Under the pieces are notes generated by a model, which was not told where the DNA came from, ran no database searches, and saw only the letters and a program-made list of their open reading frames with translations. 64,000 nt of DNA from Brevibacillus humidisoli. Its GTDB lineage: Bacteria; Bacillota; Bacilli; Brevibacillales; Brevibacillaceae. Positions 8,697 through 52,724 of this stretch are shown piece after piece; within the stretch, counting starts at the first letter, position 1, and each line of letters begins with the position of its first letter. The DNA lies in NCBI RefSeq assembly GCF_020923435.1, contig NZ_CP087263.1, positions 2,313,970 through 2,377,969 of the forward strand, written 5' to 3'. The position numbers and the translations under genes are program-made.

Positions 8697-9647
8697 ATGG
8701 GAGTTGATGGGGTGATCCGTCTGGGCTACGCCTGCATCAGTATGGCCACCAAAAACAATCCCAACAAAAAAACAACACTGGCTCAACTGCAAAAACTGGA
8801 TCGGGCCGGACAAATGAAAAAACTGCGAAAAATCCTGCAGACAAACTTCTTTAACCTGATGGAGATTCTTGCTTACAATCGTGAGCACGCCATCTACTTG
8901 TACCGTCTGCCCTCGGAATTCGTTCCGTTTGCAACTCATCCGGTAGCCGATGGCTGGGATTGGGAGAAAGAATTCAGCTGGGACTTTGACAAAGCAGGCG
9001 AATACATCCGCAAACACGGTATGCGCGTTACCTCTCATCCGGGCCATTACAGCATTCTCAACACCCCTCACGAGGAGGTGCTGCGCTCAACGATCAACGA
9101 TTTTGATTATCATGCCCGGGTGCTGGATCGGATGGGACTTGACATCGACTCCGTGATGGTCACTCATGTCGGCGGTGTGTATGGAGACAAACAAGCCTCA
9201 TTGGATCGCTTCGCCGATCATTTTCAGCGACTGCCGGATCATGTAAAAAAGCGACTGGTGGTGGAAAATGACGACACTTCATTTGGCATGCGCGAAGTAT
9301 TGGAGTTGTGTGAACGTCTCGGTGTTCCGATGATCCTTGATGTTCATCATCACGACTGTGTCAACAATGGCGAGCGATTGGAGGAGTATCTGCCGCGCAT
9401 CTTTCAGACTTGGGGGGAACGAACGCCCAAAATACACTTCTCCTCGCCCAGGTCGGAGAGCGACTTTCGGAGCCATGCCGACAACATCAACGTCGATGAT
9501 TTTCTGCGATTTGTGGAAAAGATCTCACATGGCAACGTCGATATCATGTTGGAGTGCAAACAGAAAGATCTCGCTCTGCTTCGACTGCGTGAGGAATTAA
9601 AAGAAGCGGGGATGGAGGTGGAGGCGCCGATATCCGTCTCAAGCTAG
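8697..9647 (+). CDS. uvsE: UV DNA damage endonuclease
   Basis: UvsE/UvdE nicks DNA immediately 5' of UV photoproducts and abasic sites, starting an alternative excision repair. The core begins at VIRLGYACIS; metal-binding motifs are visible: SHPGHYSILNT, HVGGVYGDK, VVENDDTSFG, ILDVHHHDC and KIHFSSPR. The frame is open to 8589, but that part has no ribosome site and overlaps the divergent gene. ATG 8697 or GTG 8712 (GGGAG 8 nt upstream) are the plausible starts, giving 312-317 residues, the normal family length. UV repair suits a spore former that also carries splB. Confidence 0.9.
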   Translation: MGVDGVIRLGYACISMATKNNPNKKTTLAQLQKLDRAGQMKKLRKILQTNFFNLMEILAYNREHAIYLYRLPSEFVPFATHPVADGWDWEKEFSWDFDKAGEYIRKHGMRVTSHPGHYSILNTPHEEVLRSTINDFDYHARVLDRMGLDIDSVMVTHVGGVYGDKQASLDRFADHFQRLPDHVKKRLVVENDDTSFGMREVLELCERLGVPMILDVHHHDCVNNGERLEEYLPRIFQTWGERTPKIHFSSPRSESDFRSHADNINVDDFLRFVEKISHGNVDIMLECKQKDLALLRLREELKEAGMEVEAPISVSS

Positions 9648-9760
9648 TAGAAACGAGTGGACTACACACATGCAGGCAGGCTTGTCTATCCCTTTGGAAC
9701 GGAAAGAAAAGACAGATGCCATCGATGGGGCACGGCACCTGCCTGTTAAACCAGCATATG

Positions 9761-10177
9761 CTAAAGACGGGATGAGGAATCACCGCCGCAGCCGCATTGG
9801 CAGCCGCACTGGCAGCCGCTGCTGCCGCCCGAAGAATCATACGAGCTACTCGTATCGTACGAGTTGCCGGCACCATAGCTATCTGGATAACATTGACTGT
9901 AGTAATGGTGCATCCGGTCTTTGTGGTGCTTGTAGTAATCGTAGTAATAGCCGAACTTGCGACGATGGTGGCGATGTTTCTGACACTTTTTCTTGTAGTA
10001 TTTCATCTTGTCCCGGTGACGATAATATTTGTAGATGAGGTTCTCAAGGATCCCTCTGTTTGGTTTGTGCCTCGGCTTGTGCTTGGGGATCGGTCTTTCC
10101 TTTTTGGGAGGCGCGTGGTGGATATTAGGCGGCATGATGGGCATAGTTGAGCTAGACTTCGGCCTTTCTTTTTCCAC
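9761..10177 (-). CDS. Spore-coat-like His/Lys/Tyr-rich protein
   Basis: A 138-residue low-complexity protein. Residues 20-90 are extremely rich in Lys, His, Arg and Tyr (KYYRHRDKMKYYKKKCQKH, FGYYYDYYKHHKDRMHHYY). A Ser/Tyr/Gly stretch follows and a cysteine knot-like tail (CQCGCQCGCGG). Such composition is typical of spore coat proteins that are cross-linked through Tyr, Lys and Cys. GTG 10177 is chosen because AAAGGAA is 9 nt upstream; GTG 10186 would sit on that site. A mother-cell sigma-type -10 (CATACCAT) lies 35 nt upstream. Coat function is inferred from composition and promoter, not homology. Confidence 0.6.
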   Translation of the reverse strand: MEKERPKSSSTMPIMPPNIHHAPPKKERPIPKHKPRHKPNRGILENLIYKYYRHRDKMKYYKKKCQKHRHHRRKFGYYYDYYKHHKDRMHHYYSQCYPDSYGAGNSYDTSSSYDSSGGSSGCQCGCQCGCGGDSSSRL

Positions 10178-10211
10178 ATTCCACACTTCCTTTCTGGTTA
10201 AGTGACACTAC

Positions 10212-10219
10212 ATGGTATG
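10212..10219 (-). promoter_or_regulatory. Possible SigE/SigK-type -10 for the coat-like gene
   Basis: CATACCAT on the minus strand fits the mother-cell sigma -10 shapes (CATACAnT of SigE, CATAnnnTA of SigK nearly). The spacing to the start codon is right. No convincing -35 was found. Confidence 0.35.
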
Positions 10220-10304
10220 ACAGGAACCCGTCGTAAGCAACGTCAGGTGCCTATTCTGAGCAAAATGACGATGCCCGTTTTTTTCTATGTTCCACTTTTG
10301 CGCC

Positions 10305-10335
10305 TTGACGAATGGCCTCCGCGTATGGCAATAAT
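10305..10335 (+). promoter_or_regulatory. Possible hutH promoter
   Basis: TTGACG and AATAAT separated by 19 nt (long for SigA). It is the best candidate upstream of the leader terminator, about 170 nt before hutH. Confidence 0.35.
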
Positions 10336-10432
10336 GAAGGATAGATAAGTATGAATACTGAGTGAAACGGGGATAGAGATATGCGCGAGAGGTGGAAGCA
10401 TCCTCTGCAACTGCATAACGCATTCCATTCAA

Positions 10433-10469
10433 CGGGGTTAGGAACCAGTTCCTAACCCCGTTTCTTTTC
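10433..10469 (+). terminator. Leader terminator (attenuator candidate) in front of hutH
   Basis: CGGGGTTAGGAA and TTCCTAACCCCG form a perfect 12-bp stem with a 4-nt loop, followed by TTTCTTTTC on the + strand only. It ends about 30 nt before the hutH ribosome site. No + strand gene ends between uvsE (9647) and here, so it terminates either a leader RNA or nothing. In B. subtilis a terminator before hutH is read through when HutP binds the RNA with histidine and Mg2+; the position here is analogous, though hutP is not adjacent. Confidence 0.7.
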
Positions 10470-10502
10470 GCTCTCTACCCTGCTAAAGGAGGAAAATATC
10501 AG

Positions 10503-12011
10503 ATGAAGACAGAATCAACCACAATCGTATCTCTGGATGGGTTTCAATTGACCATCGAACAAGTGGAAGCCATCGCCCGTCGCTTTGAACCGGTTGCTCT
10601 CTCGGAGGAAGCGATCCGGCGCATACGCGAATCGCGGCACATGGTGGAACAAATGGTGGAACAGCGTCAAGTAGCCTACGGGGTGACCACCGGATTTGGC
10701 AAGTTTTCCGATGTTGTCATCTCAGCAGAAGATACCAGCCAACTGCAGGAGAATCTGATCATGAGCCACGCTTGCGGTGTTGGTGAGCCGTATCCTGTGG
10801 AAGTAGTACGTGCGATCATGGCACTCAGAATCAATGCACTGGCGAAAGGCTATTCCGGTATCCGACTGGAAACGCTGACATTGATGATCGAGATGGTAAA
10901 CCGCGGAGTTCATCCGGTCATTCCCCAACAGGGGTCGCTTGGTGCTAGCGGCGACCTGGCGCCACTCGCCCATCTGGTTCTCGTCATGCTGGGAAAAGGG
11001 GAAGCAGAGTACGGCGGCCGACGACTTCCAGGAACAGAAGCGCTGCAAGCCGCCGGTCTGAAACCGATCCGCCTGGAAGCCAAAGAAGGTTTGGCCTTGA
11101 TCAACGGGACACAGGCGATGACTGCTCTTCTCTGTCTGGCTCTGGCAGACGCGCGGACCGTGTTGGAAAGCGCTGAAGTGATCGCGGCGATGAGTGTAGA
11201 AGCGTTGCGCGGAATCCCCAAAGCATACGATCCCAAGCTGCACGCTGTACGACCGCACCCGGGACAGCAGGAATCGGCCCGTCGTCTGTTGTTGCACCTG
11301 CAGGGCAGCGATCGTACCAGTGAACAGGGGGAGCTTCGCGTACAGGATGCATACAGCCTCCGCTGCATTCCGCAGGTACACGGGGCGACGCGGGACACAC
11401 TGGAGTACGTATGGCAAACAGTGCAACGGGAATGCAACAGTGTTACGGATAATCCGGTGCTGTTTGCAGAGACGGGCGAAGTGATTTCCGGCGGCAATTT
11501 CCACGGACAGCCGATGGCATTGGTCGCCGATTTTCTGGCGATTGCGGTGGCCGAGCTGGCCAACATCTCGGAGCGGCGCACCGAGCGCCTGGTCAACCCA
11601 CAATTAAGCAACCTGCCCGCCTTTCTCACACCTTATGGGGGCCTCCATTCGGGCTATATGATTGCCCAGTATGTCGCAGCTTCGATCGTATCGGAAAACA
11701 AAGTGCTGTGCCATCCGGCATCAGTGGACTCCATACCTTCTTCTGCCAACCAAGAGGATCATGTCAGTATGGGCACAACTGCGGCACGCAAGCTGCGTAC
11801 CGTGGTCGACAACACCCGAAAGGTGCTGGCAATTGAATACCTGGCAGCCGCACAGGCGATTGATTTTGGTGAGGGCAAACTGGGAGCAGGGACAGAGAAA
11901 GCGTACCAACTGCTGCGCACGAATATTCCTCGCCTTGAACATGATCGCGAGATGCACGCCGACATGGTACAGGCAGAGCAGTTGATCAGGGCTAAGTCGT
12001 TGCTGTTTTGA
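10503..12011 (+). CDS. hutH: Histidine ammonia-lyase
   Basis: A 502-residue HutH, converting L-histidine to urocanate and ammonia, the first step of histidine use. The Ala148-Ser149-Gly150 triad (GSLGASGDLAPLAHL) self-cyclises to the MIO electrophile. Other conserved parts are GVTTGFGKF, INGTQAM, SVTDNPVLF and GNFHGQPMAL. Start ATG follows AAAGGAGG. It is alone here: hutU, hutI, hutG and hutP are not in the window, so the rest of the pathway must be elsewhere or missing. Control by the leader terminator upstream is plausible. Confidence 0.96.
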   Translation: MKTESTTIVSLDGFQLTIEQVEAIARRFEPVALSEEAIRRIRESRHMVEQMVEQRQVAYGVTTGFGKFSDVVISAEDTSQLQENLIMSHACGVGEPYPVEVVRAIMALRINALAKGYSGIRLETLTLMIEMVNRGVHPVIPQQGSLGASGDLAPLAHLVLVMLGKGEAEYGGRRLPGTEALQAAGLKPIRLEAKEGLALINGTQAMTALLCLALADARTVLESAEVIAAMSVEALRGIPKAYDPKLHAVRPHPGQQESARRLLLHLQGSDRTSEQGELRVQDAYSLRCIPQVHGATRDTLEYVWQTVQRECNSVTDNPVLFAETGEVISGGNFHGQPMALVADFLAIAVAELANISERRTERLVNPQLSNLPAFLTPYGGLHSGYMIAQYVAASIVSENKVLCHPASVDSIPSSANQEDHVSMGTTAARKLRTVVDNTRKVLAIEYLAAAQAIDFGEGKLGAGTEKAYQLLRTNIPRLEHDREMHADMVQAEQLIRAKSLLF

Positions 12012-17523: not shown

Positions 17524-18591
17524 AGGTAAAATATTCAATCCGCGCTCGTGGAAACAGCCGTGCAATCTGCTGTTCCAAATGGGTACGCAACTCGTTGGCC
17601 TGCTGATCCGGGTAGACGTACTTTCCCTTGCCGTATTTACCCCACTTGTACTTCCGCTCCGACTCGTCCATCTTCAGCTTGGTCTTCGGATAGCGTTTTA
17701 CGATGAGGTTCTTGGCTACCTTGGTAAACCGGTGCTGGATCAACTCGAAGGTCAGATCCGCCATTGCTTCTGGCGGCAGTTGGTCATGCAGGTTCTCCAG
17801 CAACTGCGTGTATCCCTGTTCCCAACCATCAAACCGGTATAGAGGGGCTATGATGAAGCCCAATGGATACCCCGCTCTGGCCACCTGTCCGGCCGCCTGC
17901 AGCCGCTGTCTAAAACTGGATGTCCCAGGTTCAAAATGCTTGATCACATAGTCTGCGTTGATGCTGAAACGAAATCGTGTGTGTCTGTTATGATCCACGT
18001 CAAGCAGCGGCTCCACATGGTGAAACTTGGTCACAAAACGGAGTCGGCCGTAGGGCTGCTGGGAAAAAAACTGAACCGCCCGCTTCAGGCTCCCGGTGAT
18101 GTGCTCTATCGCCAGCGGGTCAGAGGTGCAAGCGGCCTCAAAACGGGTAATCTCCGGCTTCCGCTCCTCGATGTACTCCTCGGCTCGCTGGAAGATTTCA
18201 TCCGTATTGACATAGACACGAACATAAGGTCTGCTGCCGATGTTCGTATTCAAATAACAGTAGTGACAGTGAGCAGCACAGCCGGTAGCCAGCGGCAGGG
18301 CATACTCTGCCGACGGTTTGGACTGCTCAAACCTCAACGTCCGCCGTACCCCTACTACCAGCGTTCGTTTGGCATTCCGGTATTTTTCCACGTCGGTTTC
18401 GCCAGGGATTCCTCGCACCTGGTTATGGCTGGTGGTCATCTCGATCGGGATGCGCTCCGCCGTATATCGTCTGTACAGTTCCTCCCCCAGCGGGTATTGC
18501 AGCGCACCCGGTTCAAAAAAACCCGGTCGGGTACAAATAGATTGGATATCTTCCCTGTTCGATCCGCTTTTTCCTGCAGCGTAGTCGCCAC
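17522..18591 (-). pseudogene. splB: Spore photoproduct lyase, frameshifted near the N-terminus
   Basis: SplB is the radical-SAM enzyme that reverses the spore photoproduct in UV-irradiated spore DNA. The CxxxCxxC cluster motif is CAAHCHYCYL, and MTTSHNQVRG is the family signature. The reading frame of the body has no proper start: its extension to 18841 encodes unrelated sequence. In another frame, GTG 18591 (behind GGGGGGAG) begins MATTLQEKADRTGK and continues to LFVPDRVF, the expected N-terminus. The two frames meet in a run of seven T (18515-18521); eight T would restore a 356-residue protein ending normally. It is either a real inactivating deletion, a slippage site, or a base-call error. 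Confidence 0.85.
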
Positions 18592-18665
18592 TTTTCTCCC
18601 CCCTCGGTGAGTAGTATCCCCACAAAGTCAGAATGCAGTGGCGCCATGATCTCACAGTGCGGCCT

Positions 18666-39911: not shown

Positions 39912-41408
39912 TTACAAGGCGTTCGATTCTGACCTGTTTTTGCGCCTGCTCTGCCACCATGTTCGAATCAGCGGTGTAAACAGAGTGATGATCGCAAGGA
40001 TCAATAAGGCTAACGAAATCGGACGGGCGAAAAAAATCGCGTAGCTTCCTTCTGACATGACCAAGGCCCGACGCAAGTTGCTCTCCGCCATCGGCCCCAG
40101 AATCAAGGCGAGAATAATCGGCGAGACAGGAAATCCATAGCGCTGCATCACGTATCCGATCATCCCGGAACCAAGCATCACCCATACATCAAAAACATTG
40201 TTGTTCAACGCATAAGCGCCGATCAAACAGAGAACGAGAATGATCGGTGTGAGGTATTCCTTGGGTACCGACAACACTTTTACAAAGAAGCGAATGCCGA
40301 TCAGTCCAAACACGATAATCAGCAGATTGGCCAGAATCATCCCAATGAAAAGGGAATAGACAACGTCTGCATTGTTTTGAAACAACAGCGGCCCCGGCTG
40401 CAGCCCTTGGATCATAAAAGCGCCAAGCAGCACTGCGGTTACCGCATCTCCGGGAATCCCCAGCGTCAGCAGGGGAATCATCGCACCGCCCGTGGTTGCG
40501 TTGTTGCTCGCTTCTGGAGCTGCCACTCCTTGGAGCGCTCCTTCTCCGAACACCTCGGGATTCCGCGAAAAGCGCTTCGCTTCATTATAAGCGACAAATG
40601 CCGATATATCACCTCCGGCCCCCGGTATCATGCCGATAAAGGTACCGATTCCTGATGATCGCAGAATCGTGCCGATCAATTGCTTGAATTCGCTCCATTT
40701 CAGTCCGATCTTGCTGATCTGCACCGACATGACTCTTTTGCATGGATCGTCTCCATCGTTTTAAAGGCTTCTGATGCTGCAAACAGTCCAATCATGACCG
40801 GAATGAAGTTTAACCCGTTCATCAGGTTAACCTGGTCAAAGGTAAATCGCGGATACCCACTGACCGGATCAAGCCCCACGGTGGCGATGATTAGTCCCGC
40901 AACTCCCGTGATCAAACCTTTTACCAGTGATTTTCCGGCGATGCTGGTGATTATCGAGAGGCCAAAAAAGGCTAAAGCAAATGATTCCGGTGCGCTGAAT
41001 TCCAAGGCCCATTCCGCCATCACCGGTGCCAGACCAATCAGAATGAACACACTGATCAGTCCCCCGATGCCAGAACTAATCGTGGAGGTCATCAGCGCTT
41101 TTTTTAGCCTCTCCTCTGCGGGCCAGAGCGTAGCCATCCATACTGGTGGCAGCAGCAGCTGGTGTGCCAGGTGTTCGCAGCAGGATGGCGCTGATCGAAC
41201 CGCCGTATATCGCGCCAAAAAAGATCCCGATCAAAAGAAGCAGCCCGGAGATAGGGGCCATGCCAAAGGTAAGCGGCAGCAGGAGCGCGACCCCCATCGT
41301 AGCGGTCAAACCGGGCAGCGAGCCGATGGCAATGCCCGCTATCGCGCCGGCGACACAGATCAAGATCACGTCAACCTGCATTACGTTTCCGATCGCCTCA
41401 AGCAGCAA
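39912..41408 (-). pseudogene. tctA: TctA-type tripartite tricarboxylate transporter large subunit, two frameshifts
   Basis: TctA is the 12-helix permease of the TTT transporter. The gene is in three frames. Part 1 (41408 to about 41100) starts at TTG 41408 behind AAGGAGAG and reads to DGYALARRGEAKK. The body continues in another frame as ALMTSTISSGIGG (normal TctA text) and runs to FKTMETIHAK; the join is a run of seven A on the coding strand (41099-41105), where six would keep frame. Part 3 (SVQISKIGLKWSEFKQLIGTI to the end) is reached by a second shift near 40736-40739 (four A where five would fit). No long domain is missing, so decay is recent. Confidence 0.88.
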
Positions 41409-41426
41409 GGGTTCTCTCTCCTTTCT

Positions 41427-41864
41427 TTATCCTGTCAGCACGCCCGACGGCAGCGGCACATGGAGCAGCTGTTCAAAGATGAAATAGATAAACAAGGTAA
41501 TCCCAACGGGTGTGAGGAGCAGAGGCAACCACTTTCTCACTTTTAGTGCGTACAGGAATACCCCTAGGATAAGCGGAGTGGAAAAGAGGAACCCCACCCA
41601 TTGAAACAGAACCACATAACCTACCATCCAGCCCATCGCGGTGGCAGCATGCTTGGCTGGATGTTCAGGTTTCATTGCTTTCTCGCGGCGTGATGACAGC
41701 AAGAGCAGGATTCCAAGCAGGAACAGCAGGATACTGAGCATCTTTGGAAAGAAGGCTGGACCGATCTCGGACACTTGTATCTCTGGAATCTGAGCTGAGA
41801 CTAAATAGACGACTGCCGCGAACGCCATGACGATGAGAGCGCTGATTAGATTTGCCGTTTTCAT
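41427..41864 (-). CDS. tctB: TctB-type small permease subunit
   Basis: A 145-residue protein with four predicted membrane helices, the usual size of TctB. It sits between tctC and tctA, as in most TTT operons. It starts right after tctC. Intact, but the large subunit gene downstream is broken, so the transporter is probably not assembled. Confidence 0.86.
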   Translation of the reverse strand: MKTANLISALIVMAFAAVVYLVSAQIPEIQVSEIGPAFFPKMLSILLFLLGILLLLSSRREKAMKPEHPAKHAATAMGWMVGYVVLFQWVGFLFSTPLILGVFLYALKVRKWLPLLLTPVGITLFIYFIFEQLLHVPLPSGVLTG

Positions 41865-41873
41865 CTTATAAAC

Positions 41874-42866
41874 TTATTTGGGGATACCCAGCTCCGGTAT
41901 AAGCTCACCAAAGTAATCGTGGCTTTCCACGATCATCTTTTGAAAGGATGATGCATCTTTAATGGAAAGACCAAGACCGTTATTTTTCATGTACGTCTTA
42001 AATTCTTCGCTCTCCGCAGCCTTCATAAATGCGTCTGCAAGGATGCTGACCACTTCCTCGGGGGTCTCTTTGGGAACAGCTAACCCACGCCACGATCCGA
42101 TCGGCGGCATCTTGATGCCCATTTGCTCCTCCAACGTTTTCACCCCTGGCAGAACGTCAGACTGTTTCTCATCGACTACCGCCAGCGTCTTTAGCTTCCC
42201 TGCTTCTACATGCGCTTTTACCTCTGCCGGACTGACGGGAACCATATCGATGTGCCCGCCAAGCAAAGCGGTTACGGCCGGGTTTGCTCCCTCAAACGGC
42301 ACATGGGTAAACTGGACGCCCACATTTTTTTCCATAATGATCGCTGCCATGTGCCATAGAGCCCCCGGCCCGGAGTTGCCTACTTTGACCTTTCCGGGGT
42401 TTTCCTTGACATAATCAAAGAACTCCTGAACAGTGTTGTACGGTGCATCTGCTCTCACCGTGATTGCAGGCGGATCAAAGTTCACCTGTGCGATCGGCTT
42501 AAAATCCTCATGGGTCAATTCAGAGAGTTTCAGATGTTTGAGGGTCGTGATTTCCATGGTAAGCATCGTCAAGGTATATCCATCCGGTTTTGCGTTTGCT
42601 CCTTCGGTGAATCCTACCGCTCCGCTCCCCCCTGTTTTATTGACAACAGCAATCGATTGGCCGAGGTGTTGTTCCGCTGCTTTGGCCAACGCTCGCGCCG
42701 TGGCGTCCGTTCCTCCCCCTGCCGAAAAGGGCACAATAATCGTCAGATCGCGCTGCGGAAAGTCTGAACCGCCTGCTGCAGCCTCCCCTGTCGCCCCACC
42801 GGAATTAGCCCCACTTCCACAAGCAGCAAGCCCGAGCAGACCGAGCAGCGCGCCAACTGCCGCCAT
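41874..42866 (-). CDS. tctC: TctC-type (Bug family) periplasmic solute-binding lipoprotein
   Basis: A 330-residue Bug-family binding protein. Lipobox LAAC at Cys16; motifs IIVPFSAGGGTDATARALA, NKTGGSGAVGF, and HVPFEGANPAVTALLGGHIDMVPV are typical. The start is odd: ATG 42866 leaves an n-region without positive charge. The upstream KWWKR codons look like the real n-region but lack an in-frame start (an ATG after GGGAGGG is in another frame and stops at once). A small 5' lesion is possible. Confidence 0.85.
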   Translation of the reverse strand: MAAVGALLGLLGLAACGSGANSGGATGEAAAGGSDFPQRDLTIIVPFSAGGGTDATARALAKAAEQHLGQSIAVVNKTGGSGAVGFTEGANAKPDGYTLTMLTMEITTLKHLKLSELTHEDFKPIAQVNFDPPAITVRADAPYNTVQEFFDYVKENPGKVKVGNSGPGALWHMAAIIMEKNVGVQFTHVPFEGANPAVTALLGGHIDMVPVSPAEVKAHVEAGKLKTLAVVDEKQSDVLPGVKTLEEQMGIKMPPIGSWRGLAVPKETPEEVVSILADAFMKAAESEEFKTYMKNNGLGLSIKDASSFQKMIVESHDYFGELIPELGIPK

Positions 42867-42917
42867 TCTCTTCCACCATTTCGTTATGCCATACCCTCCC
42901 TGAAGTTATTTTCAATA

Positions 42918-42969
42918 ATGGGAATTTTCCATCAAAAATAAACAGTGTTATTATTTAAACCGCTTTCAT
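42918..42969 (-). promoter_or_regulatory. Candidate operator and cre site upstream of tctC
   Basis: ATGGGAATTTTCCAT (42918-42932) is palindromic except one pair. TTAAACCGCTTTCAT (42955-42969; minus strand ATGAAAGCGGTTTAA) matches the CcpA cre consensus except one position. Confidence 0.35.
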
Positions 42970-43000
42970 TTTTGGCCGTACTAGAATTCCGTGCCCTTTT

Positions 43001-43036
43001 ATGCAGCAGGGGAAGGGCAACCCCACCCCGCTGCAT
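43001..43036 (-). terminator. Hairpin after the kdgD-like gene
   Basis: ATGCAGCAGGGG and CCCCGCTGCAT with one bulged base; no T-tract on the minus strand. Confidence 0.4.
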
Positions 43037-43044
43037 GCTGAAGA

Positions 43045-43968
43045 TCAGGTAATCTCCTGTTTGGGCAGCAATCCCCATGACTGTAAAATCGCTTGTACTT
43101 CTGCACGATCCTCCGCTTGCAGCGGATCGACAGGTTCCCGGGTGATTCCAGGGTTCATTCCGATCTGGGCCATCGCTTCTTTGATGACGACAACGTTGTT
43201 GCCATTGTTATATTTTGCCCGCAAATTTTCAAAGGCTAAAATGTCTTCCCAGATCTTCCACACCTGCTCCTGGTCCCCGTTATGCAGCGCTTCCAGCATC
43301 CGAAGCGACTTTTCGGGATACACATTGACCAATCCAGATGTAAACCCTCTCGCTCCTGCGTGGTAAAAGAAGGGAGCCCATTTTTCCGCTGTTCCGCAAA
43401 TCCAGGTAATCTGGTGCTCATCCGGTATCTCCCGTACGGTTTTGGCAAAGCGGGGCAGATCGTTGATTGCATATTTGACAGCAATCAGCTTCTCCAGTGG
43501 GGCCAATTCTTTGAGTACATTGTCGCTCAGATTGTGATCTTTAAAGTAAAGAATCGATGGGATGTCCAGTGTTTCAATGATCTTTTTAAAATAGGAGCCG
43601 GCGCCGCGATCCGTCACATATGGATGGATCGGTTGATGAATCATCACGGCATCCGCACCCGCCTGTTGAGCATACTGCCCCAGTTCGATCGCGATGGGCA
43701 GAGCATAGCCGATGCCGGCAATCACCAGTGCTCTGCCGTTTACGATTTCCACCACCCGCTTGATTTCCTCCTTGGCCTCCTCAATCGTCAAGGAGTAGAA
43801 CTCGCCTGTATTGCCGCACGGGACAATCGATTGGATACCGTGGTCAAGCAGGAAGCGGATGTTTTCCTCCAGTTTGTCCCAGTTTACTTCCCTCGTCTCT
43901 TCATCAAAAGGGGTAATATTGATCGCGGAGATCGTCTCCAGTTTCCCGCTTATCTCTGCATAGTTCAA
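43045..43968 (-). CDS. Dihydrodipicolinate synthase-family lyase, kdgD-like
   Basis: A 307-residue DHDPS-family aldolase. Schiff-base lysine Lys165 (LIAVKYAI), catalytic Tyr141 (ILYFKD) and the GNTGEF pyruvate loop (52-57). In B. subtilis the homologous YcbC is a 5-dehydro-4-deoxyglucarate dehydratase acting with a semialdehyde dehydrogenase and a GntR regulator, exactly the neighbours here. That activity, giving alpha-ketoglutarate semialdehyde, is therefore the likely role. It is intact and 16 nt downstream of the GntR gene. Confidence 0.78.
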   Translation of the reverse strand: MNYAEISGKLETISAINITPFDEETREVNWDKLEENIRFLLDHGIQSIVPCGNTGEFYSLTIEEAKEEIKRVVEIVNGRALVIAGIGYALPIAIELGQYAQQAGADAVMIHQPIHPYVTDRGAGSYFKKIIETLDIPSILYFKDHNLSDNVLKELAPLEKLIAVKYAINDLPRFAKTVREIPDEHQITWICGTAEKWAPFFYHAGARGFTSGLVNVYPEKSLRMLEALHNGDQEQVWKIWEDILAFENLRAKYNNGNNVVVIKEAMAQIGMNPGITREPVDPLQAEDRAEVQAILQSWGLLPKQEIT

Positions 43969-43983
43969 TGGCTTCTCTCCCCT

Positions 43984-44646
43984 TTAGTCTTTGGACTGCT
44001 GCAAGACATGTTGGGCGGTGCGCAGGATATGTTGTTTCATTCTGGTTTCCGCCAGATCTGCATCACGCAGTTTGATCGCTTCAAAGATCTGCTGATGCTC
44101 GATAAACCCTTGCTGGATCTCTGTACTCAACTGCAGGGCTCGTTTTCGAAATGCCTTGTCTACATTCTCTACGGTAAGCAACGTTTTGGAGAGAATCGGA
44201 CTTTTGGCAATCCGTCGGATCATCATATGAAAGTTGGTATTTTCCTCCGAGTACCGTTCGATCTCCTGCTCGTTCTTTAACTGTTCCATCACATCAATCT
44301 GGTGCTTCAACTGCTCCAGTTCCTGGTCGGTGATCTTGACAGCAGCCAGTCGTGCCGTCAATCCCTCCAGATACGCTTTTAGCATCAGCGTTTCTTCAAT
44401 GGATGAATTGACCATTTCCGAGACATACGTTCCTTTGCGGGGCAGGGTCTCGACCAGTCCTTCATGGGACAGGATGCGGAACGCTTCTTTGATCGGTGTT
44501 GTGCTGATACCCATTTCCTTGGCCAGTTCACGCTCTTTTAGATGTTCGCCTGGTTGAAAATGCCCGCTGATAATCGCATTGCGTATCGTTTCCAGCGCAA
44601 TGTCCCGCAGTGATTTGAAATTCTCTGAAACCACGTTTAGCTGCAT
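43984..44646 (-). CDS. GntR-family (FCD-type) repressor
   Basis: A 220-residue regulator. Residues 10-75 hold the winged helix (RDIALETIRNAIISGHFQPGEHLKERELAKEMGISTTPIKEAFRIL), followed by a helical FCD ligand domain (HMMIRRIAKSPILSKTL with metal-binding His/Asp candidates, and a His near 200). ATG 44646 follows AGAGGGAAG; the longer frame to 44757 is not supported. It is the likely local regulator of the island, with candidate operators at 44698 and 48881. Confidence 0.85.
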   Translation of the reverse strand: MQLNVVSENFKSLRDIALETIRNAIISGHFQPGEHLKERELAKEMGISTTPIKEAFRILSHEGLVETLPRKGTYVSEMVNSSIEETLMLKAYLEGLTARLAAVKITDQELEQLKHQIDVMEQLKNEQEIERYSEENTNFHMMIRRIAKSPILSKTLLTVENVDKAFRKRALQLSTEIQQGFIEHQQIFEAIKLRDADLAETRMKQHILRTAQHVLQQSKD

Positions 44647-44697
44647 TTTGGTATCTTCCCTCTGTCTTTTCACGTTTGCTCTCCTGAATCTGATTTT

Positions 44698-44714
44698 TGA
44701 TCTATCACAGATCA
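44698..44714 (-). promoter_or_regulatory. Palindrome upstream of the GntR gene
   Basis: TGATCT-ATCAC-AGATCA, perfect 6-bp arms, about 50 nt upstream of the GntR start; possible autoregulatory operator. Confidence 0.4.
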
Positions 44715-44789
44715 CATTAGTGTAACAGGAAGCGACTGCTTTTTCCATGAAGCTCACCCCTGCTTTTCCCTGCTGCGGCCAAGCAGCAG

Positions 44790-45546
44790 CTAGCGCATCA
44801 GCTGACCCCCGTTCACCTCGATCGTTTCTCCCGTAATATAGTCGGCATAGGAAGAAGCCAGGAACAGTACCGGACCTACTGCTTCTTCGGCGGTTCCTTC
44901 TCGTCCCATCGGAATCTGAGAGACCATTTGACGGCGGAATTCCGGGGTGGAGAAACGATCGTGAAATGGGGTGGATATTACTCCGGGCGCGATCGCATTG
45001 ACTAGAATATTGTAGTCAAGCAGATCTTTCGCCATCGCTTTGGTCAACGTGTGAATCGCCCCTTTGGAGGTGGCGTAGGCTAGGGCACCCCTTCCCCCTC
45101 CGTTATGTCCCGCTACCGAGGCGAGGTTGATCACCCTGCCCCTTCCTTGAGCCTTCATCAGCGGAAGCACGGCCTGTGTAACGAGGAAGACCGATTTCAG
45201 GTTGACTGCCATCACTCTGTCCCACGTCTCTTCATCCAGTTCCTCTAGGCGTGCACGTTTCACCATCGAACCTGCATTGTTCATCAGCACATCGACTCGA
45301 CCAAACGCTTCTTTTATCTGAGCCACCATGCTGTCTACCTGCTGCTTATCCGAAACATCTCCCTGTACCAGCAACACCTTTCTGCCTTTTTGGACAATCT
45401 CCTGGTAGACGGACTCCGCTTCCGTCGCACTTGAATGGTAGTGAACGACAACATCAGCCCCGTGCTCTGCAAAGGCCAGAGCCGCCGCCCGACCGATTCC
45501 TGTGCTGCTTCCGGTCACCCATACAACCTGGTTGGAAAGAATACAT
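44790..45546 (-). pseudogene. Short-chain dehydrogenase/reductase, N-terminal frameshift
   Basis: SDR-family NAD(P)-dependent oxidoreductase. The body is complete: TGSSTGIGRAAALAFAE, NNAGSMVKRARLEELDEETWDRVMAVNLK, catalytic Tyr-Lys in ALAYATSKGAIHTLTKAMAKDL, and C-terminal GGQLMR. The body frame has no start except GTG in the middle of the Rossmann loop (VTGSS). In a second frame, ATG 45546 behind GGAGGG gives MYSFQ, and the body frame just before VTG reads NQVVWVTG. Losing one A near 45532 explains the break. Its substrate may be a uronate or related sugar acid; it belongs to the kdgK-eda operon. Confidence 0.78.
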
Positions 45547-45592
45547 GATCTTATACCCTCCTATCTCTGGTTACGTCCTCTCCCATGTCTTC

Positions 45593-47058
45593 CTATGGCG
45601 TGACAAATACCGTTTTCACCGATGTGAAAAATTCTATCGCAGCCTGCCCCTGCTCGCGGGAGTGTGAACTGGACTGCTTCATGCCTCCAAACGGAGCCTG
45701 CAGTTCAACACCGGCTGTCTCGGCATTGATGCGGACCAACCCCGCATCCATCTGGGAAATAAAGGTGAGCGCGCTCTTGATATTGGTCGTATAAACAGAA
45801 GCGCTTAATCCGTACTGCACATCATTGGCTACATCCAATGCCTCTTCTAACGTATCCACCTTGATACAGGCCAGTACCGGCCCAAAGATCTCCTCCTGCG
45901 CAAGTTTCATCTCACGCGTCACATGCTCGAAGATGGCAGGCTGGATAAAGAAGCCATTGGCCGTCCAGCCCTCCGACAATCGTTGGCCTCCATAGAGGAG
46001 GGTTGCCCCTTCTTGTCTGCCTGACTCAATATAGGAAAGAACCGTCTGCATCTGTTTTTCACTGACACAAGGCCCCATCCAGGTCTCTTCAGCCAGACCA
46101 TTGCCTACTTTTATTTCTTTTACTTTGGCCAACAGCTTTTCAAGAAAAGCGCGTAAACATCAGCCAGGATGATGACGCGGCTGGTAGCGGTACACTTTTG
46201 TCCTGTCGAGCGCAGTCCCCCGCTGATCGTTCCTGCTACCGCCAAGTCCAGATCGGCATCGCTGACTACGATCACCGGATTCTTGCCGCCCATCTCCAAC
46301 TGGTATTTGGCTCCTCGGACCAGTGCCCCCTGTCCAACCTGTTTTCCCACCTGATTGGAACCGGTAAAGGTGATGCCGTTTATGCCCTGATGTGCTACTA
46401 TCGCTTGACCAATCACTGCACCCTGTCCCATCACCAGATTGACCACACCCGCCGGCACACCTGCTTCCTCGAAACATTCGACTACCTTTGCCGCTGTTAC
46501 GGAAGTCTCTTCGGCCGGTTTGAAAACCACCGCATTTCCATAGACCAGTGCTGGCGCTATTTTCCACAGCGGGATGGCAACCGGAAAGTTCCAGGGCGTA
46601 ATCACCCCTACTACGCCCAGTGGGACGCGTGTCGTATACATCAGAGCACTGCTGTCTGTTGAGGGGATCACATCGCCTATTTTCCGCATCCCTTCACCGG
46701 CGTAATAGCGGAGGATGGCAATCCCGCGGGCCGTCTCCCCCCTTGCTTCCGCCAGTGTTTTTCCCATCTCGCGGGTCATGGTTTCTGCGATATCTTCCAA
46801 ATGACGTTCCAGCACCGCTGCTGTTCGATACAGATAGTCGCCTCGCTGGGCCCCGGAAAGATTCCGCCACTGCTGCTGAGCTTTCTGCGCTGCGGCAACG
46901 GCTGCATCCAGATCTGCCTGTTCAAAGACCTGCACATATCCCACGATTTCGTGTTTGTCAGCTGGATTCAGGCTAGCCTCCGTCTTCCCAGTTGCCGATG
47001 CCGTCCATTGACCATTGATATAGTTGTGGTACGTTTTTGGAATTGGTTGTTGTTTCAT
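45593..47058 (-). pseudogene. Aldehyde dehydrogenase (alpha-ketoglutarate-semialdehyde type), frameshifted
   Basis: NAD(P)-dependent ALDH expected to oxidise the semialdehyde made by the kdgD-like enzyme. Both catalytic residues remain: Glu in [11 protein letters not shown] and Cys in GQKCTATSR. After LADVYALFL the frame ends in KSCWPK*, whereas the other frame continues [14 protein letters not shown], the expected text, to the normal C-terminus ([21 protein letters not shown]). Four A at the coding-strand join (46137-46140) where five would keep frame. Start ATG 47058 follows AAAGGATGG. Without repair the product loses about 170 residues. Confidence 0.86.
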
Positions 47059-47100
47059 TTCCATCCTTTCCATCCTTTTTGACATGTTCATTGTGATCGG

Positions 47101-47769
47101 CTATATGGCTTTGCTGGCCAAGGCGGTTCGCGCCTGGTCGATCGCTGCAACATATCGGCTGGCCAACTCCTGCATGCGAATGAAATCATCTTCTCCTGCT
47201 GCTTGCGGATTGACCAGATTGCCGCCAATGCCGACTGCTGCTGCACCAGCCGCGAAAAACGCCGCGACATTGGACAGGTTCACCCCGCCAGTCGGAACGA
47301 TCGGCACCTGTGGAAACGGCGCCCTGACATCCCGTATGTACTGTGGTCCCAACGCGGCGGCCGGAAAGAGTTTGACCAGATCTGCTCCCCACTGCATCGC
47401 TTGAATGATCTCCGTGGGAGTCATGACGCCCGGCATCACAACCTTGCCATAGCGGTTGGCCGTCTCGATCACGTCCCGATGCAGACTAGGGCTAAAGAGG
47501 AACTGGGCCCCGCTGTCAATCGCCCGCTTCGCTGTTTCGCTGTCCAGTACAGTACCGGCACCGACAGCGGCACGGTGTCCCAGTTTTTGCGCGATGCGGG
47601 AGATCGCCTCCCATACGCCCGGGGTATCGACGGTTACTTCAAGTGCCGTAATCCCTCCAGCGACCAGACTCTCCGCGATGCGGTCGATCACATCTGCCGG
47701 GGGACGGCGAAGCACGGCAATCACGCCGCTTTCCGTTATCTTTTGCAGCACCTCTGCTCTTGCGAACAT
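47101..47769 (-). CDS. eda: 2-dehydro-3-deoxyphosphogluconate aldolase
   Basis: A 222-residue KDPG aldolase cleaving KDPG to pyruvate and glyceraldehyde-3-phosphate. The Schiff-base lysine is Lys133 (GADLVKLFPAA) and the general acid Glu44 (ALEVTVDTPG). GGVN phosphate loop PTGGVNL. Reads intact. It is 21 nt downstream of kdgK and 40 nt upstream of the aldehyde dehydrogenase gene. Confidence 0.92.
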   Translation of the reverse strand: MFARAEVLQKITESGVIAVLRRPPADVIDRIAESLVAGGITALEVTVDTPGVWEAISRIAQKLGHRAAVGAGTVLDSETAKRAIDSGAQFLFSPSLHRDVIETANRYGKVVMPGVMTPTEIIQAMQWGADLVKLFPAAALGPQYIRDVRAPFPQVPIVPTGGVNLSNVAAFFAAGAAAVGIGGNLVNPQAAGEDDFIRMQELASRYVAAIDQARTALASKAI

Positions 47770-47789
47770 CCCGCCTGCACCTCCTCTAC

Positions 47790-48791
47790 CTAGCGGCTGA
47801 CGTCCGGTCGATCACCGTCCAGGTTCATTTGCGACCAGAATGGATATCCCTCTACATCTCCAGCGACAGTCAGGGCGTAAGCTCCGATTCGGTTTCCCAG
47901 ACGGACTGCCTCCCCGAGCGGCCAACCACGCAAGTATCCTGACAAAAACCCTGCTGCAAATCCATCACCGGCACCAATCGAATCCACGATCTGATCGACG
48001 GGAAATCCGGCTACATAGCCCGCATCATCTGCCGTCTGATAGTACGCTCCTTTGGCACCCAGTTTGATCACCACCACTTTGGCGCCATTTTTCAGCAGGA
48101 CGCGACCGATCTTCTCCGGCTCCGTCTCCCTGGTGAGAATGGTCCCTTCCTCCAAACCAGGCATCACCACGTCACATTTGGCAGCAATCTCCATCAGCGT
48201 CTCCCTTGCTTCTGCTTTGGTCCACAGCTTGAGTCTAATGTTGGGATCAAACACGATCGTCAGGTTGTGTTTTTGCGCGAGGGAGATGCTGTGATGCACT
48301 GTCTCTTTGCAGCCATCGCTCAAGGCAGGAGTGATCCCGGTCAGATGGAGAATGTGAGCATCTCGTATCTGTTCCTCCCTGATGTGCTCCGGTTTCATCT
48401 GGCTGGCGGCGGATCCTGAGCGGTAGTAATAAACGTTTGGTTCCCGGCCTTCCCGCCGTTCCTTGAAATACACGGCCGTAGGGTGTCGGTGGTCAAAGGT
48501 AACGGCCGATGTGTCGACTCCTTCACCGCGGATGAAGTTGCGGGTGAAGGTACCAAACTCATCGTCACCCAGCCTGCTGATCCATCTGACTGTATGTCCC
48601 AGCCTGACAAGAGCGATCGCGACATTTGATTCCGCTCCTCCGATCGTTTTTTCAAAATGGGTCGCATAGCGCAGCGGACCGGTTGATAACGGTGAAAACA
48701 GCACCATCGTTTCGCCGAATGTAACCACGTCAATGGTTCTACTCTTTCTTTCTCCACTGTCGGGAGAGATCGCTATTTCCTGTGCCCTCAA
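47790..48791 (-). CDS. kdgK: 2-keto-3-deoxygluconate kinase
   Basis: A ribokinase/pfkB-family kinase of about 333 residues, phosphorylating KDG to KDPG. Signatures: GGAESNVAIALVRLGH, catalytic base in DSIGAGDGFAAGFLSGYLRG, ATP site VVVIKLGAKG. TTG 48791 with GAGAGGAG upstream is preferred; GTG 48800 overlaps that site. First gene of the leftward operon running to tctA, with a promoter and palindromic operator upstream. Intact. Confidence 0.9.
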   Translation of the reverse strand: MRAQEIAISPDSGERKSRTIDVVTFGETMVLFSPLSTGPLRYATHFEKTIGGAESNVAIALVRLGHTVRWISRLGDDEFGTFTRNFIRGEGVDTSAVTFDHRHPTAVYFKERREGREPNVYYYRSGSAASQMKPEHIREEQIRDAHILHLTGITPALSDGCKETVHHSISLAQKHNLTIVFDPNIRLKLWTKAEARETLMEIAAKCDVVMPGLEEGTILTRETEPEKIGRVLLKNGAKVVVIKLGAKGAYYQTADDAGYVAGFPVDQIVDSIGAGDGFAAGFLSGYLRGWPLGEAVRLGNRIGAYALTVAGDVEGYPFWSQMNLDGDRPDVSR

Positions 48792-48880
48792 ATGCTTCAC
48801 TCCTCTCTATGGCTTCTGATCACGTTCCGCTCCACGTTCTCACCACAGTTTATCAACTGTTCACTTTTGGTATTTGAAAT

Positions 48881-48892
48881 CTGATATATCAG
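48881..48892 (-). promoter_or_regulatory. Operator palindrome CTGATATATCAG before kdgK
   Basis: Perfect 12-bp palindrome starting 12 nt downstream of the -10 box, overlapping the transcription start region. Its shape fits GntR (FCD) operators such as TGATATATCA. Confidence 0.55.
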
Positions 48893-48903
48893 TTGTTTTT
48901 GTT

Positions 48904-48933
48904 ATTATAACCAGCTTCTGTTTCAAACGTCAA
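48904..48933 (-). promoter_or_regulatory. Promoter of the kdgK operon
   Basis: TTGACG-18 nt-TATAAT on the minus strand; five and six consensus matches. Confidence 0.7.
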
Positions 48934-49014
48934 CAATATTCGAAAAAAAGCTGCTAGTCAAAGAATAAACGAAGGAATAGGCGCCTCACCAAGAGAAGAC
49001 GCCTTTCCCGCAGG

Positions 49015-49785
49015 TTAGCGCCCCATCCATCCTCCGTCCACGGTAATGATGGAGCCGCTTAGATAATCGGATGCAGATGAGGCTAAAAACACAGCGGCGC
49101 CTTGCAAATCTTCCGGCTTACCCCACCTTCCTGCCGGAATTCTCTCGATAATGCCTGCGTTCCGCTCTGGATTGCGGCGGAGCTGCTCCGTATTGTCCGT
49201 ATCGATATAGCCCGGGGCGATCGCATTGATTTGCACACCATGCTGGGCCCACTCATTGGACAGCGCCATCGTTAGTTGAGCGATGCCTCCTTTGCTCGCG
49301 GCATAGCCCGGCACATATAGGCCGCCTTGGAAACTTAACAGAGAAGCGATAAAGATGATTTTCCCCGCTTTTCGCTGCATCATCTCTTTGCCGATCTCTC
49401 GACTCAATACAAATTGTGCATTCAGATTCACTTCCATGACGGTATCCCAGTATTCATCCGGATGCGTGACAGCAGGCTCCCGCTTGATCGTCCCTGCGTT
49501 GTTCACCAGGATGTGAATCTCCGACACATCTTGCTTTACCTGTTCGATAAAACGATACAGCGAGGTGCGGTCAGAAAAGTCGTGCGTATAGCCGTAAAAG
49601 GAACGTCCTCGCGCGGAGACTTCCCGTTCCACCTCGCTTCCCGAGGATTCCAGACTAGCGCTGACCCCCACGATGTCCGCTCCCGCCTCAGCCAAGGCAA
49701 TCGCGATCGCCCTGCCAATCCCCCGCTTGCAGCCGGTCACAAGCGCTACTTTTCCATCCAGCCGAAACCGATCCAGAATGGTCAC
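49015..49785 (-). CDS. kduD: 2-dehydro-3-deoxy-D-gluconate 5-dehydrogenase
   Basis: A 256-residue SDR enzyme reducing 2,5-diketo-3-deoxygluconate to KDG. Typical KduD text: FRLDGKVALVTGCKRGIGRAIA, NNAGTIKREPAVTHPDEYWDTVMEVNLNAQF, catalytic YAASKGGIAQL. GTG 49785 is chosen because GAGGAGGAGAG lies just upstream; ATG 49806 would overlap the preceding remnant's stop. Intact. It follows the alcohol dehydrogenase remnant on the same strand. Confidence 0.88.
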   Translation of the reverse strand: MTILDRFRLDGKVALVTGCKRGIGRAIAIALAEAGADIVGVSASLESSGSEVEREVSARGRSFYGYTHDFSDRTSLYRFIEQVKQDVSEIHILVNNAGTIKREPAVTHPDEYWDTVMEVNLNAQFVLSREIGKEMMQRKAGKIIFIASLLSFQGGLYVPGYAASKGGIAQLTMALSNEWAQHGVQINAIAPGYIDTDNTEQLRRNPERNAGIIERIPAGRWGKPEDLQGAAVFLASSASDYLSGSIITVDGGWMGR

Positions 49786-49798
49786 TTCTCTCTCCTCC

Positions 49799-49890
49799 TC
49801 ATCCATTTTCTATCGTCACCACTGCCTTCATCACGTGTCCGCCCTGGGTCAGTTCATCAAACCCTTGCTGCAGCTGTTCTAGTGGATAGC
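49799..49890 (-). pseudogene. C-terminal remnant of a zinc alcohol dehydrogenase
   Basis: The minus strand encodes THRYPLEQLQQGFDEL and TQGGHVMKAVVTIENG then a stop, the normal C-terminus of a medium-chain (threonine/idonate-type) zinc dehydrogenase. Everything upstream of roughly THRYPLEQ is gone: the sequence becomes dctM on the other strand. The stop codon overlaps the kduD ribosome region. Confidence 0.7.
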
Positions 49891-49891
49891 G

Positions 49892-50536
49892 ATGGGTGTT
49901 GACTCCATCTTGGCGCTGATGACAGTTGTCATCCTCCTGGGCGGCATTCTGTCGGGGATCTTTACCGCAACGGAAGCCTCTGTCGTTGCCGTCGTCTATT
50001 CCTTCCTCCTCGGTTTTTTCGTGTACAAGGAGCTGCGCTTGCGAGACCTTCCCCGGATCATTGTCCAGACAGCGAGTATCACCGGTGTTGTTGTGCTTTG
50101 CATTGCAACCGCTTCCAGTTTTGGCTGGATTCTGGCTGCCGAACAGATCCCAAGCGCCATTGCCGAATCCATCCTAACCATCACGGATGATCCGGTTTTC
50201 ATTCTCCTGCTGATCAATCTGATCCTTCTTTTGTTCGGCACTTTTCTCGATGTGTCTCCCATCCTGATCATTGTCGTACCTATCCTTTTTCCGATCGCTA
50301 TGCAGTTGGGTGTCGATCCTCTCCACTTTGGGATCATGACCATCGTCAATATGGCAATCGGACAGTGCACACCACCGGTCGGCATCGCTTTGTTCGTCTC
50401 GATGGGCATTTCCAAAGCGCCGCTCGGTCAGATCCTTGGCACGTATTCCGTATTCCTATTCTCGATGGTGGTCCTGTTGCTGCTAGTGACGTTTCTCCCT
50501 GGTTTGGTTATGTTTCTGCCTGAATGGTTGTCATGA
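49892..50536 (+). pseudogene. dctM: TRAP transporter large permease, C-terminal half only
   Basis: A 214-residue fragment matching the second half of DctM (normally about 425 residues): VVILLGGILSGIFTATEASVV, then LLLINLILLLFGTFLDVSPILIIVVPILFPIA and NMAIGQCTPPVGIALFVSMG. The first half and the small permease DctQ are absent. ATG 49892 has no ribosome site and lies at the deletion junction. A DctM lacking half its helices cannot be functional. Confidence 0.85.
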
Positions 50537-50592
50537 TCCGCAATGATGCTGCCTAGATTAAGATTTCACCTTTTCCAAAGGGGGTATTTCCG

Positions 50593-51623
50593 ATGAAACG
50601 AAATGCGTCAACTTGGCTTTGCATCACATGTCTGCTCTTCTTCCTCGCTGGCTACGGCGGCGGTACAGAAACCAGTTCCAACTCCGCTTCATCAGCAACC
50701 CAAGGAGGAAATCCACCGAAAACCGTAGAGCTAAAGCTGTCAAATGTGCTTCCTGATGACAATCCGACGACGCAAGCGCTGCAGTTCTTCGCTGACCGAG
50801 TAAAGGAGAAAACCAACGGTACGGTGGAAATCAAACTGTTTAACAACAGTCAGCTTGGGGGACAACGCGAAGCAATGGAAGGCATGCAAGTCGGTTCGAT
50901 GGAGATGGCGATGGTCTCTGCCGGGCCTGCTGCCCAGTTTGTTCCCACGTTAAATGTATTGAGTCTATTGAGAGCAAGGAACATATGTTTAAAGCCCTCA
51001 ACGGGGAAGCGGGCCAGAAGCTAAAAGAGGATATCAACAAAGCAGGCTTTACCTTTCTGATGTGGGCCGACGGGGGATCGCGCAACATCATTACCAAAGA
51101 CAAACCGGTATACACGCCTGAGGATCTAAAGGGTCTGAAGATTCGGGTGATGAACAGCCAGTTGATGGTTGATGCGTTGAACAGCATGGGCGCCATCGCT
51201 ACACCGATGGAGCAAGGCGAAGTATATACCGCGATTGAACAGGGCGTGTTGGACGGATGGGAAAACAATCCCGTCACCCTGTTGACCTTGAAGTTGTATG
51301 AAGTGTCCAAGGCTTTCTCCTGGACCCAGCATTTCATGGTGCCGGATATGGTCCTGATCAGCGACAACGTGTTTCAGAAACTGTCTCCCGAACAGCAGCA
51401 AGCGATCAAGGAAGCAGCTGCAGAAGCGGAAGCCAAACAGCGGGAACTGTGGGATGCGTATATCGGCAATACCGTGAAGGAGCTTGAATCCCATGGCGTG
51501 ACGTTTACCGAGATTGACGATTTGTCACCGTTCATCGAGCGAGCAAAGCCGATCTGGAACTCATACAAGGAGCAGTACGGTTCAGAGCTGATTACGCTGA
51601 TCGAACAGGCCAAGCAAAAATAA
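50593..51623 (+). pseudogene. dctP: TRAP transporter substrate-binding protein, frameshifted and with mutated lipobox
   Basis: DctP-type solute-binding protein. Part 1 (50593-51024) has the N-terminal domain (LKLSNVLPDDNPTTQALQFFADRVKEKT, GGQREAMEGMQVGSMEMAMVS) to NVLSL; the frame then derails. Part 2 (about 50967-51623) has IESKEHMFKALNGEAG and the rest. The expected PY/F-type residues between are missing. ATTGAG occurs at 50958-50963 and 50967-50972, so a short deletion or slippage there is likely. The lipobox reads LAGY: Cys to Tyr (TGC to TAC), so it could not be lipidated. Confidence 0.85.
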
Positions 51624-51646
51624 TTGACAGGGAGGTTTTTTTGCAT

Positions 51647-52477
51647 ATGGAGGTTCGCCAAGCCACTCACCCCCATGAGATGAAACACTACACCACAGAA
51701 CGGCTGCGCAAGGAGTATCTGATCGAGTCCCTGTTCGTCGCAGGAGAACTGCGCCAGGTCTACTCTCACCATGACCGAATGATTATCGGAGGAGCCACTC
51801 CTCTACGGGAAGAGATTTCGCTGGATGCAGGTGATACTCTGCGAGTGGACTTTTATCTGGAGCGAAGGGAGATCGGTATCGTCAATATCGGCGGGAAGGG
51901 ATCTGTTCTTGTGGAAAACGAACCGTTTCCGCTGGAGCTCTTCTCCTGCCTCTACATCGGCAGGGGAAAGCGAGACGTCGTGTTTCGCAGTGATTCGGCT
52001 GAGCAACCGGCCAAATTTTACTTCGTCTCCACGCCAGCTCATCACTCTCATCCCATCCAGCAGATCAAACTGGAGAATGCCGAGGCTCAACAATTGGGAG
52101 CTGCTGGCTCCTCCAACGTGAGAACGATCCGCAAGCTGATTCATGCAGACGGCTTGCAAAGCTGTCAGCTGATGTTGGGGATCACGCAACTCGCACCCAA
52201 CAACATGTGGAACACGATGCCGACGCACTGCCACGATCGCCGCTCTGAAGTGTACTTGTACATGCAGCTGCCACAGGATGCGCGTGTATTTCACTTCATG
52301 GGTCGGCCAGAGGAAACACGCCACTTGGTGGTGGGCAATGAACAAGCGGTGATCTCCCCCAGTTGGTCAATCCACTCTGGTGTGGGTACGAGCCACTACA
52401 GTTTTATCTGGGCGATGGCCGGTGAGAATGATTCATTCGATGATATGGACTTTGTGGCAATGGAGGAATTGAGATAA
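51647..52477 (+). CDS. kduI: 5-keto-4-deoxyuronate isomerase
   Basis: A 276-residue cupin-type zinc isomerase converting 5-keto-4-deoxyuronate to 2,5-diketo-3-deoxygluconate, the step before KduD. The N-terminus MEVRQATHP matches E. coli KduI. Zinc ligands lie in MPTHCHDRRSEVYLY with a later His in SWSIHSGVGTSHYSFIW. ATG 51647 is 11 nt after GGGAGG; TTG 51641 is an alternative. Intact, downstream of the broken TRAP genes. Confidence 0.92.
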   Translation: MEVRQATHPHEMKHYTTERLRKEYLIESLFVAGELRQVYSHHDRMIIGGATPLREEISLDAGDTLRVDFYLERREIGIVNIGGKGSVLVENEPFPLELFSCLYIGRGKRDVVFRSDSAEQPAKFYFVSTPAHHSHPIQQIKLENAEAQQLGAAGSSNVRTIRKLIHADGLQSCQLMLGITQLAPNNMWNTMPTHCHDRRSEVYLYMQLPQDARVFHFMGRPEETRHLVVGNEQAVISPSWSIHSGVGTSHYSFIWAMAGENDSFDDMDFVAMEELR

Positions 52478-52635: not shown

Positions 52636-52724
52636 TGGCGGAGGGAGAGGGATTCGAACCCCCGTGGGCTTGCACCCTAACGGTTTTCAAGACCGCCCCG
52701 TTATGACCACTTCGGTATCCCTCC
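52636..52724 (-). tRNA. tRNA-Ser (anticodon UGA)
   Basis: On the minus strand GGAGGGA pairs with TCCCTCC, then G and an encoded CCA. The anticodon arm GCGGT-CTTGAAA-ACCGT gives anticodon TGA (reads UCA). A long variable arm (GTTAGGGTGCAAGCCCAC region) and the T-loop GGTTCGAATCC are present, as required for class II tRNA-Ser. No IS or phage gene uses it as an attachment site here. Confidence 0.95.

Follow-up and report, generated by a model that had tools for sequence, protein, structure and literature searches.

Frame breaks crowd into one short block of the Brevibacillus humidisoli chromosome, and the question raised by this block is whether they record genuine gene loss or faults of the assembly. 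The window (the whole 64,000-nucleotide stretch of DNA that was analysed, bases 2313970-2377969 of a 4.91-Mb genome in a single contig) carries its sugar-acid uptake and catabolism genes as a 12.6-kb island (window 39912-52477) between ydcZ and a tRNA-Ser gene. The island contains KduI, a KduD-like protein, a KdgK-like kinase, Eda, a GucD-like aldehyde dehydrogenase (ALDH), a short-chain dehydrogenase (SDR), a DHDPS-family lyase, a GntR regulator, and importers of the TctABC and TRAP types. We aligned the genes to intact homologues with tolerance for frame changes and named them using Pfam and NCBIfam. Read from the sequence, the island is probably an accessory unit of sugar-acid catabolism undergoing recent and real pseudogenisation, still at an early stage. 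This reading builds on the lesions and their local excess, on the absence of the island from its site in two congeners, and on the intact ALDH and TRAP paralogues that the genome holds elsewhere.

Among the leftward-reading genes (minus strand), tctA (39912..41408) is spread over three frames, and alignment to the G004 and G002 copies (62% identity) places a +1 break at about 41105, within a run of seven A, and a -1 break at about 40732, which adjoins four A; the Pfam TctA profile (PF01970) accordingly matches three pieces (profile positions 1-89, 88-210 and 215-423). Open frames follow for tctB (41427..41864; PF07331, 89.6 bits), tctC (41874..42866; PF03401, 199.8 bits), the DHDPS-family lyase (43045..43968; PF00701) and the GntR/FCD regulator (43984..44646; PF07729 and PF00392), whose start was chosen by coding score and whose open reading frame could be extended to 44757. 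The SDR gene (44790..45552; 61.5% identity to a G001 protein) is broken at about 45534, that is at residue 17, near the N-terminus, and the ALDH gene (45593..47091; 74.7% identity) has a -1 break at about 46152, outside any run, which splits the Aldedh match in two. Beyond these lie open copies of eda (47101..47769), the PfkB kinase gene kdgK (47790..48707; PF00294) and kduD (49015..49806), and finally a C-terminal remnant of 32 residues from a zinc alcohol dehydrogenase (ADH; 49803..49901). On the plus strand, only the second half of dctM remains (49892..50536; PF06808 positions 211-413), and dctP (50593..51623) is interrupted at about 50968, where the alignment falls short by three codons and one base, so that the break looks like a short deletion, and PF03480 matches in two pieces. 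The DctP N-terminus reads LAGY, with Tyr in place of the lipobox Cys that is present in 21 of the 39 homologues listed, many of the 18 without it being fragments that lack the N-terminus. The gene kduI (51641..52477) is open, and the island is bounded by tRNA-Ser (TGA; 52636..52724, minus strand, by ARAGORN), with its 3′ end towards the island. The alignments and Pfam matches thus recovered every lesion named by the first-pass annotation: two breaks in tctA, one each in the SDR, ALDH and dctP genes, the lost lipobox Cys, and the deletion spanning dctM and the ADH gene. Its statement that transporters are hit hardest did not survive counting, since three of five transporter genes are damaged compared with three of nine others (P = 0.34), and the ADH, ALDH and SDR genes are all broken enzyme genes.

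Whether such breaks could be technical was judged against 780 kb of the same chromosome adjoining the window (844 kb including it), using as references 400 kb of G001, 800 kb of G002 and loci of other relatives. Of the 576 genes that could be evaluated, 11 belong to the island (9.9 kb) and 565 (548 kb) to the rest, with dapA and dctM beyond the reach of the scan; because it ignores 25 residues at the start of each protein and 10 at the end, the SDR gene and splB are also absent from its counts. Outside the island, 30 genes were flagged and sorted by eye. Nineteen were set aside (ten antisense artefacts, one of them mixed; seven whose only fault was a stop towards the C-terminus, including one in a distant paralogue; and two due to a reference that was over-extended or to the boundary of a gene), which left 11 frame breaks. 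Of these, eight fall in homopolymer runs of five to eight bases and have the look of uncorrected assembly errors. By eye, the affected genes encode a sigma factor, two ABC ATPases (one LivF-like), a glycosyltransferase, a membrane protein, an RlmI-like methyltransferase, a lon-like protease and an amidohydrolase; in window-relative coordinates the lon-like break is at 419366 in seven G and the LivF-like break at 459652 in eight G. The three breaks outside runs affect an FtsX-like permease, for which only a paralogue of about 50% identity is known, and a membrane-protein gene present twice. Its two copies sit in an exact 1209-base repeat (window-relative -92432 to -91223, with the copy 9881 bases further), each with a frame break and a stop, and both were counted as broken; an initial assignment of these two loci as insertion sequences was wrong. 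Within the window, splB (17525-18625, minus strand) has an N-terminal break in seven T of the coding strand (18515-18521), which by eye belongs to the background class. The first-pass annotation saw no other convincing frameshift in the remaining 50 kb or so of the window, and this stands as far as the 42 non-island window genes evaluated are concerned, the single one flagged being an antisense artefact; the genome background is nevertheless not zero, at 11 breaks in 548 kb.

Against this background the island stands out, as had been claimed. The scan found four break places there in three genes, three of them outside runs, so that 4 of all 15 break places fall in 1.8% of the evaluable sequence (P = 1.1e-4), as do three of the six outside runs (P = 1.1e-4), and 3 of 11 island genes are broken compared with 11 of 565 outside (P = 0.0017). 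The balance of homopolymer to other breaks, 1:3 in the island and 8:3 outside, does not differ significantly (P = 0.24, or 0.11 with the SDR gene included). A control with paralogues across the whole genome outside the island, from which one weak Aldedh row (3498209) was excluded, gave 50 full-length genes (2 TctA, 15 DctM, 20 Aldedh and 13 DctP) and two partial ones, a DctM and a DctP piece at 1.411-1.413 Mb, whereas all four island genes of these families are broken (P = 4e-5); since the region had been picked beforehand by a reader for looking broken, all of these P values serve as guides only. The two partial genes belong to a second TRAP wreck (L177, about 9600-10700; G000:C1:1411633-1412661) in which the profiles match no more than DctM positions 179-259 and DctP positions 103-204, and which is apparently more decayed than the island. 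With 15 full-length DctM and 13 DctP outside the island, the genus seems to be rich in TRAP transporters.

These figures bear on the possibility that most of the small breaks are errors in the assembly consensus, with the deletion alone, and perhaps the dctP lesion, being real. The eight homopolymer breaks outside the island, one of them in the lon-like gene, show the kind of fault expected from long-read assemblies, which are prone to homopolymer errors (Polypolish, PMC8812927), and the tctA break in seven A is of the same kind. That is, on the other hand, the only island break in a run of at least five equal bases; the other four small breaks fall outside such runs, breaks are packed far more densely here than in the background, and it was a substitution that altered the lipobox. 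We therefore regard this explanation as very improbable overall. The first-pass annotation, which placed several of the shifts in short homopolymers, was right only in part: assembly error could account for the tctA break in seven A, but is unlikely for the remaining lesions.

The deletion at 49.89 kb joins the ADH tail, on the minus strand, to dctM from profile position 211. In G003, a genome of the same family, an intact zinc ADH gene stands directly before kduD-kdgK-eda (L058) with the same gene order and strand, the ADH being whole there and a tail here. One deletion took most of the ADH gene and the 5′ half of dctM, and because ADH-kduD reads leftward and dctM-dctP-kduI rightward, it also removed everything that lay between. 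The TRAP importer is left with P broken, M halved and no Q gene among the called genes; the deletion probably also carried off dctQ, together with the region holding the divergent promoters of the two operons, ADH-kduD and TRAP-kduI, and kduD has apparently been cut off from its native upstream sequence. A TRAP gene order with the substrate-binding protein last is the YiaMNO-like arrangement, and the island shares with it the position of dctM before dctP, differing in the missing dctQ and halved dctM; the TRAP relatives that we fetched have dctP before dctM, unlike the island. No orthologous TRAP system with the same layout was found in 39 genomes of the family (DctM query), 398 of the class (DctP) or 398 of the phylum (DctM), each count including this genome, and the best identities outside the window were 51% (family) and 54% (phylum) for DctM and 46% (class) for DctP. 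A plasmid collection yielded no match either. The size of the deletion, put at about 2 kb, is therefore no more than a guess based on typical gene lengths.

The order in which the damage arose is a more tentative matter. It is possible, though we would not favour it, that a single deletion across the divergent promoters shut down two operons of the dispensable island together and that the coding lesions came after. Whatever the order, expression was probably lost and selection relaxed; small lesions broke the tctA, ALDH, SDR and dctP genes, and a missense change struck the DctP lipobox. Between kduD and kdgK, a promoter-like site upstream of kdgK (48904..48933, read from 48933 to 48904 on the minus strand) has 11 of 12 matches, such sites numbering 11 compared with 11.1 in shuffles. 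Because of this site, the idea of promoter loss for the entire minus-strand block was dropped.

What the island once did can be outlined from its genes. KduI-KduD-KdgK-Eda is the unsaturated-uronate route described in pectin degraders and in E. coli. Here KduI passes its model (NF002091, 421.1 bits compared with a cut-off of 250), as does Eda (TIGR01182, 182.9 compared with 156.05), KduD narrowly misses (TIGR01832, 330.3 compared with 338.85), and the kinase is a PfkB protein of KDG type below the equivalog cut-off (NF040938, 240.8 compared with 400 bits). The island departs from that route in its broken importers and several broken enzymes, and no GH88 hydrolase was found in the genome. Both ALDH pieces score best against GucD (NF042993, 539.9 and 308.1 bits, the cut-off of 770 being set for the whole protein). 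The frames of kduI, kduD, kdgK, eda and the lyase gene are all open, as the first-pass annotation stated, but its naming of the lyase as KdgD-like is not borne out by a score far below that of curated KdgD (TIGR03249, 141.6 bits compared with a cut-off of 373.95). Another member of the KduI/IolB family, encoded at 1.894 Mb, is probably IolB. The TctABC loci of G002, G027, G015 and G053 are of the same type as that of the island (TctA and TctC 50-74% identical by piece) and have kdgK-eda directly after tctA, which suggests a sugar-acid cargo, whereas in the island kdgK-eda stands apart with other genes between and tctA is broken; three further TctA/TctC loci (L047, L026 and L027) have no kdgK-eda in the stretch examined. 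The substrate of the island would be a sugar acid.

The open frames raise the prospect that only importers and side enzymes have been lost and that kduI-kduD-kdgK-eda still works on substrate provided by other synthesis or import systems. Besides the four open frames, the promoter-like site of kdgK and the 15 other full-length DctM proteins would be in keeping with such a remnant. The lack of a GH88 hydrolase in the genome and the deleted region upstream of kduD speak against it, and a young cluster of pseudogenes would have open frames too, so we consider a working remnant rather unlikely. The view that uptake was lost and the pathway kept, as first annotated, is not established: the ALDH gene is broken, kduD has seemingly lost its upstream region, and intact ALDH, DctM and DctP paralogues exist elsewhere, among them an ALDH of 73-74% identity (L050).

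Returning to recent pseudogenisation, the broken tctA, SDR and ALDH genes are 61-75% identical to their nearest homologues and the open kdgK, eda, tctC and kduI genes 61-72%, and the likeness of these two ranges suggests that the lesions are young. Deviations at invariant columns are more frequent in ALDH (10/198) and the C-terminal piece of tctA (4/46) than in nearly all homologues. The other broken genes hardly deviate (dctM 0/23, dctP2 0/15, tctA middle piece 1/25) and some open ones do (gntR 3/21, kduD 2/21), so that loosened constraint is merely hinted at in a comparison that omits tctB (39/71 columns, with only four homologues) and dapA and kduI (too few homologues). Erosion under relaxed selection, as first proposed, nevertheless fits the local enrichment, the mostly non-homopolymer breaks, and the presence of a deletion and a missense change, once its transporter and uptake-only parts are given up.

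How the island came to this site is a separate question. Comparison with relatives at the same locus was run for the congeners G001 and G002, whose flanks are syntenic at 72-90% identity (ydcZ with a YhcN-like gene to the left, and to the right a second aldehyde dehydrogenase gene with its neighbour). The flanks enclose 13.3 kb here and 1.9 kb and 4.4 kb in the two congeners, where the island is absent and blastn found no remnant of it at the syntenic site. A matching tRNA sequence lies about 100 bases after ydcZ in G001; in G002 a flagellin-like open reading frame, identified by eye, lies between ydcZ and tRNA-Ser (about G002:C1:2533047-2534264), and the site seems on this account to be variable in the genus. 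We see about even chances that the island was acquired by transfer at the tRNA-Ser site in this lineage and is now being purged. Absence from both congeners compared, with no blastn remnant, and the position of the island against the tRNA 3′ end are as transfer would predict, and among the sequences fetched kdgK, eda and the ALDH gene are closest to G045, from another family, and tctC to Aneurinibacillus. Against this, none of the called genes encodes an integrase, there is no border repeat above chance (the longest is 7 bases, with a shuffled mean of 7.4), composition is like that of the rest of the genome (GC 0.524 compared with 0.528, codon score 0.211 compared with 0.203), just two congeners were compared, and G003, of the same family, carries ADH-kduD-kdgK-eda elsewhere. 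These observations are compatible with differential loss as well as with gain by transfer.

The process itself is well known as ordinary loss of accessory genes, and the case is new as an instance only; the portions of the literature covered by our search held nothing on this island, which is no proof that it is unpublished. Its interest lies in a cluster of probably real, recent lesions that can be distinguished, within one assembly, from homopolymer breaks of technical origin, and in the caution that the presence of kduI, kduD, kdgK and eda is not in itself a sign of uronate or glucarate use. If promoter loss did come first, strains of the species would show the steps by which the island decayed, with promoters lost before coding sequences.
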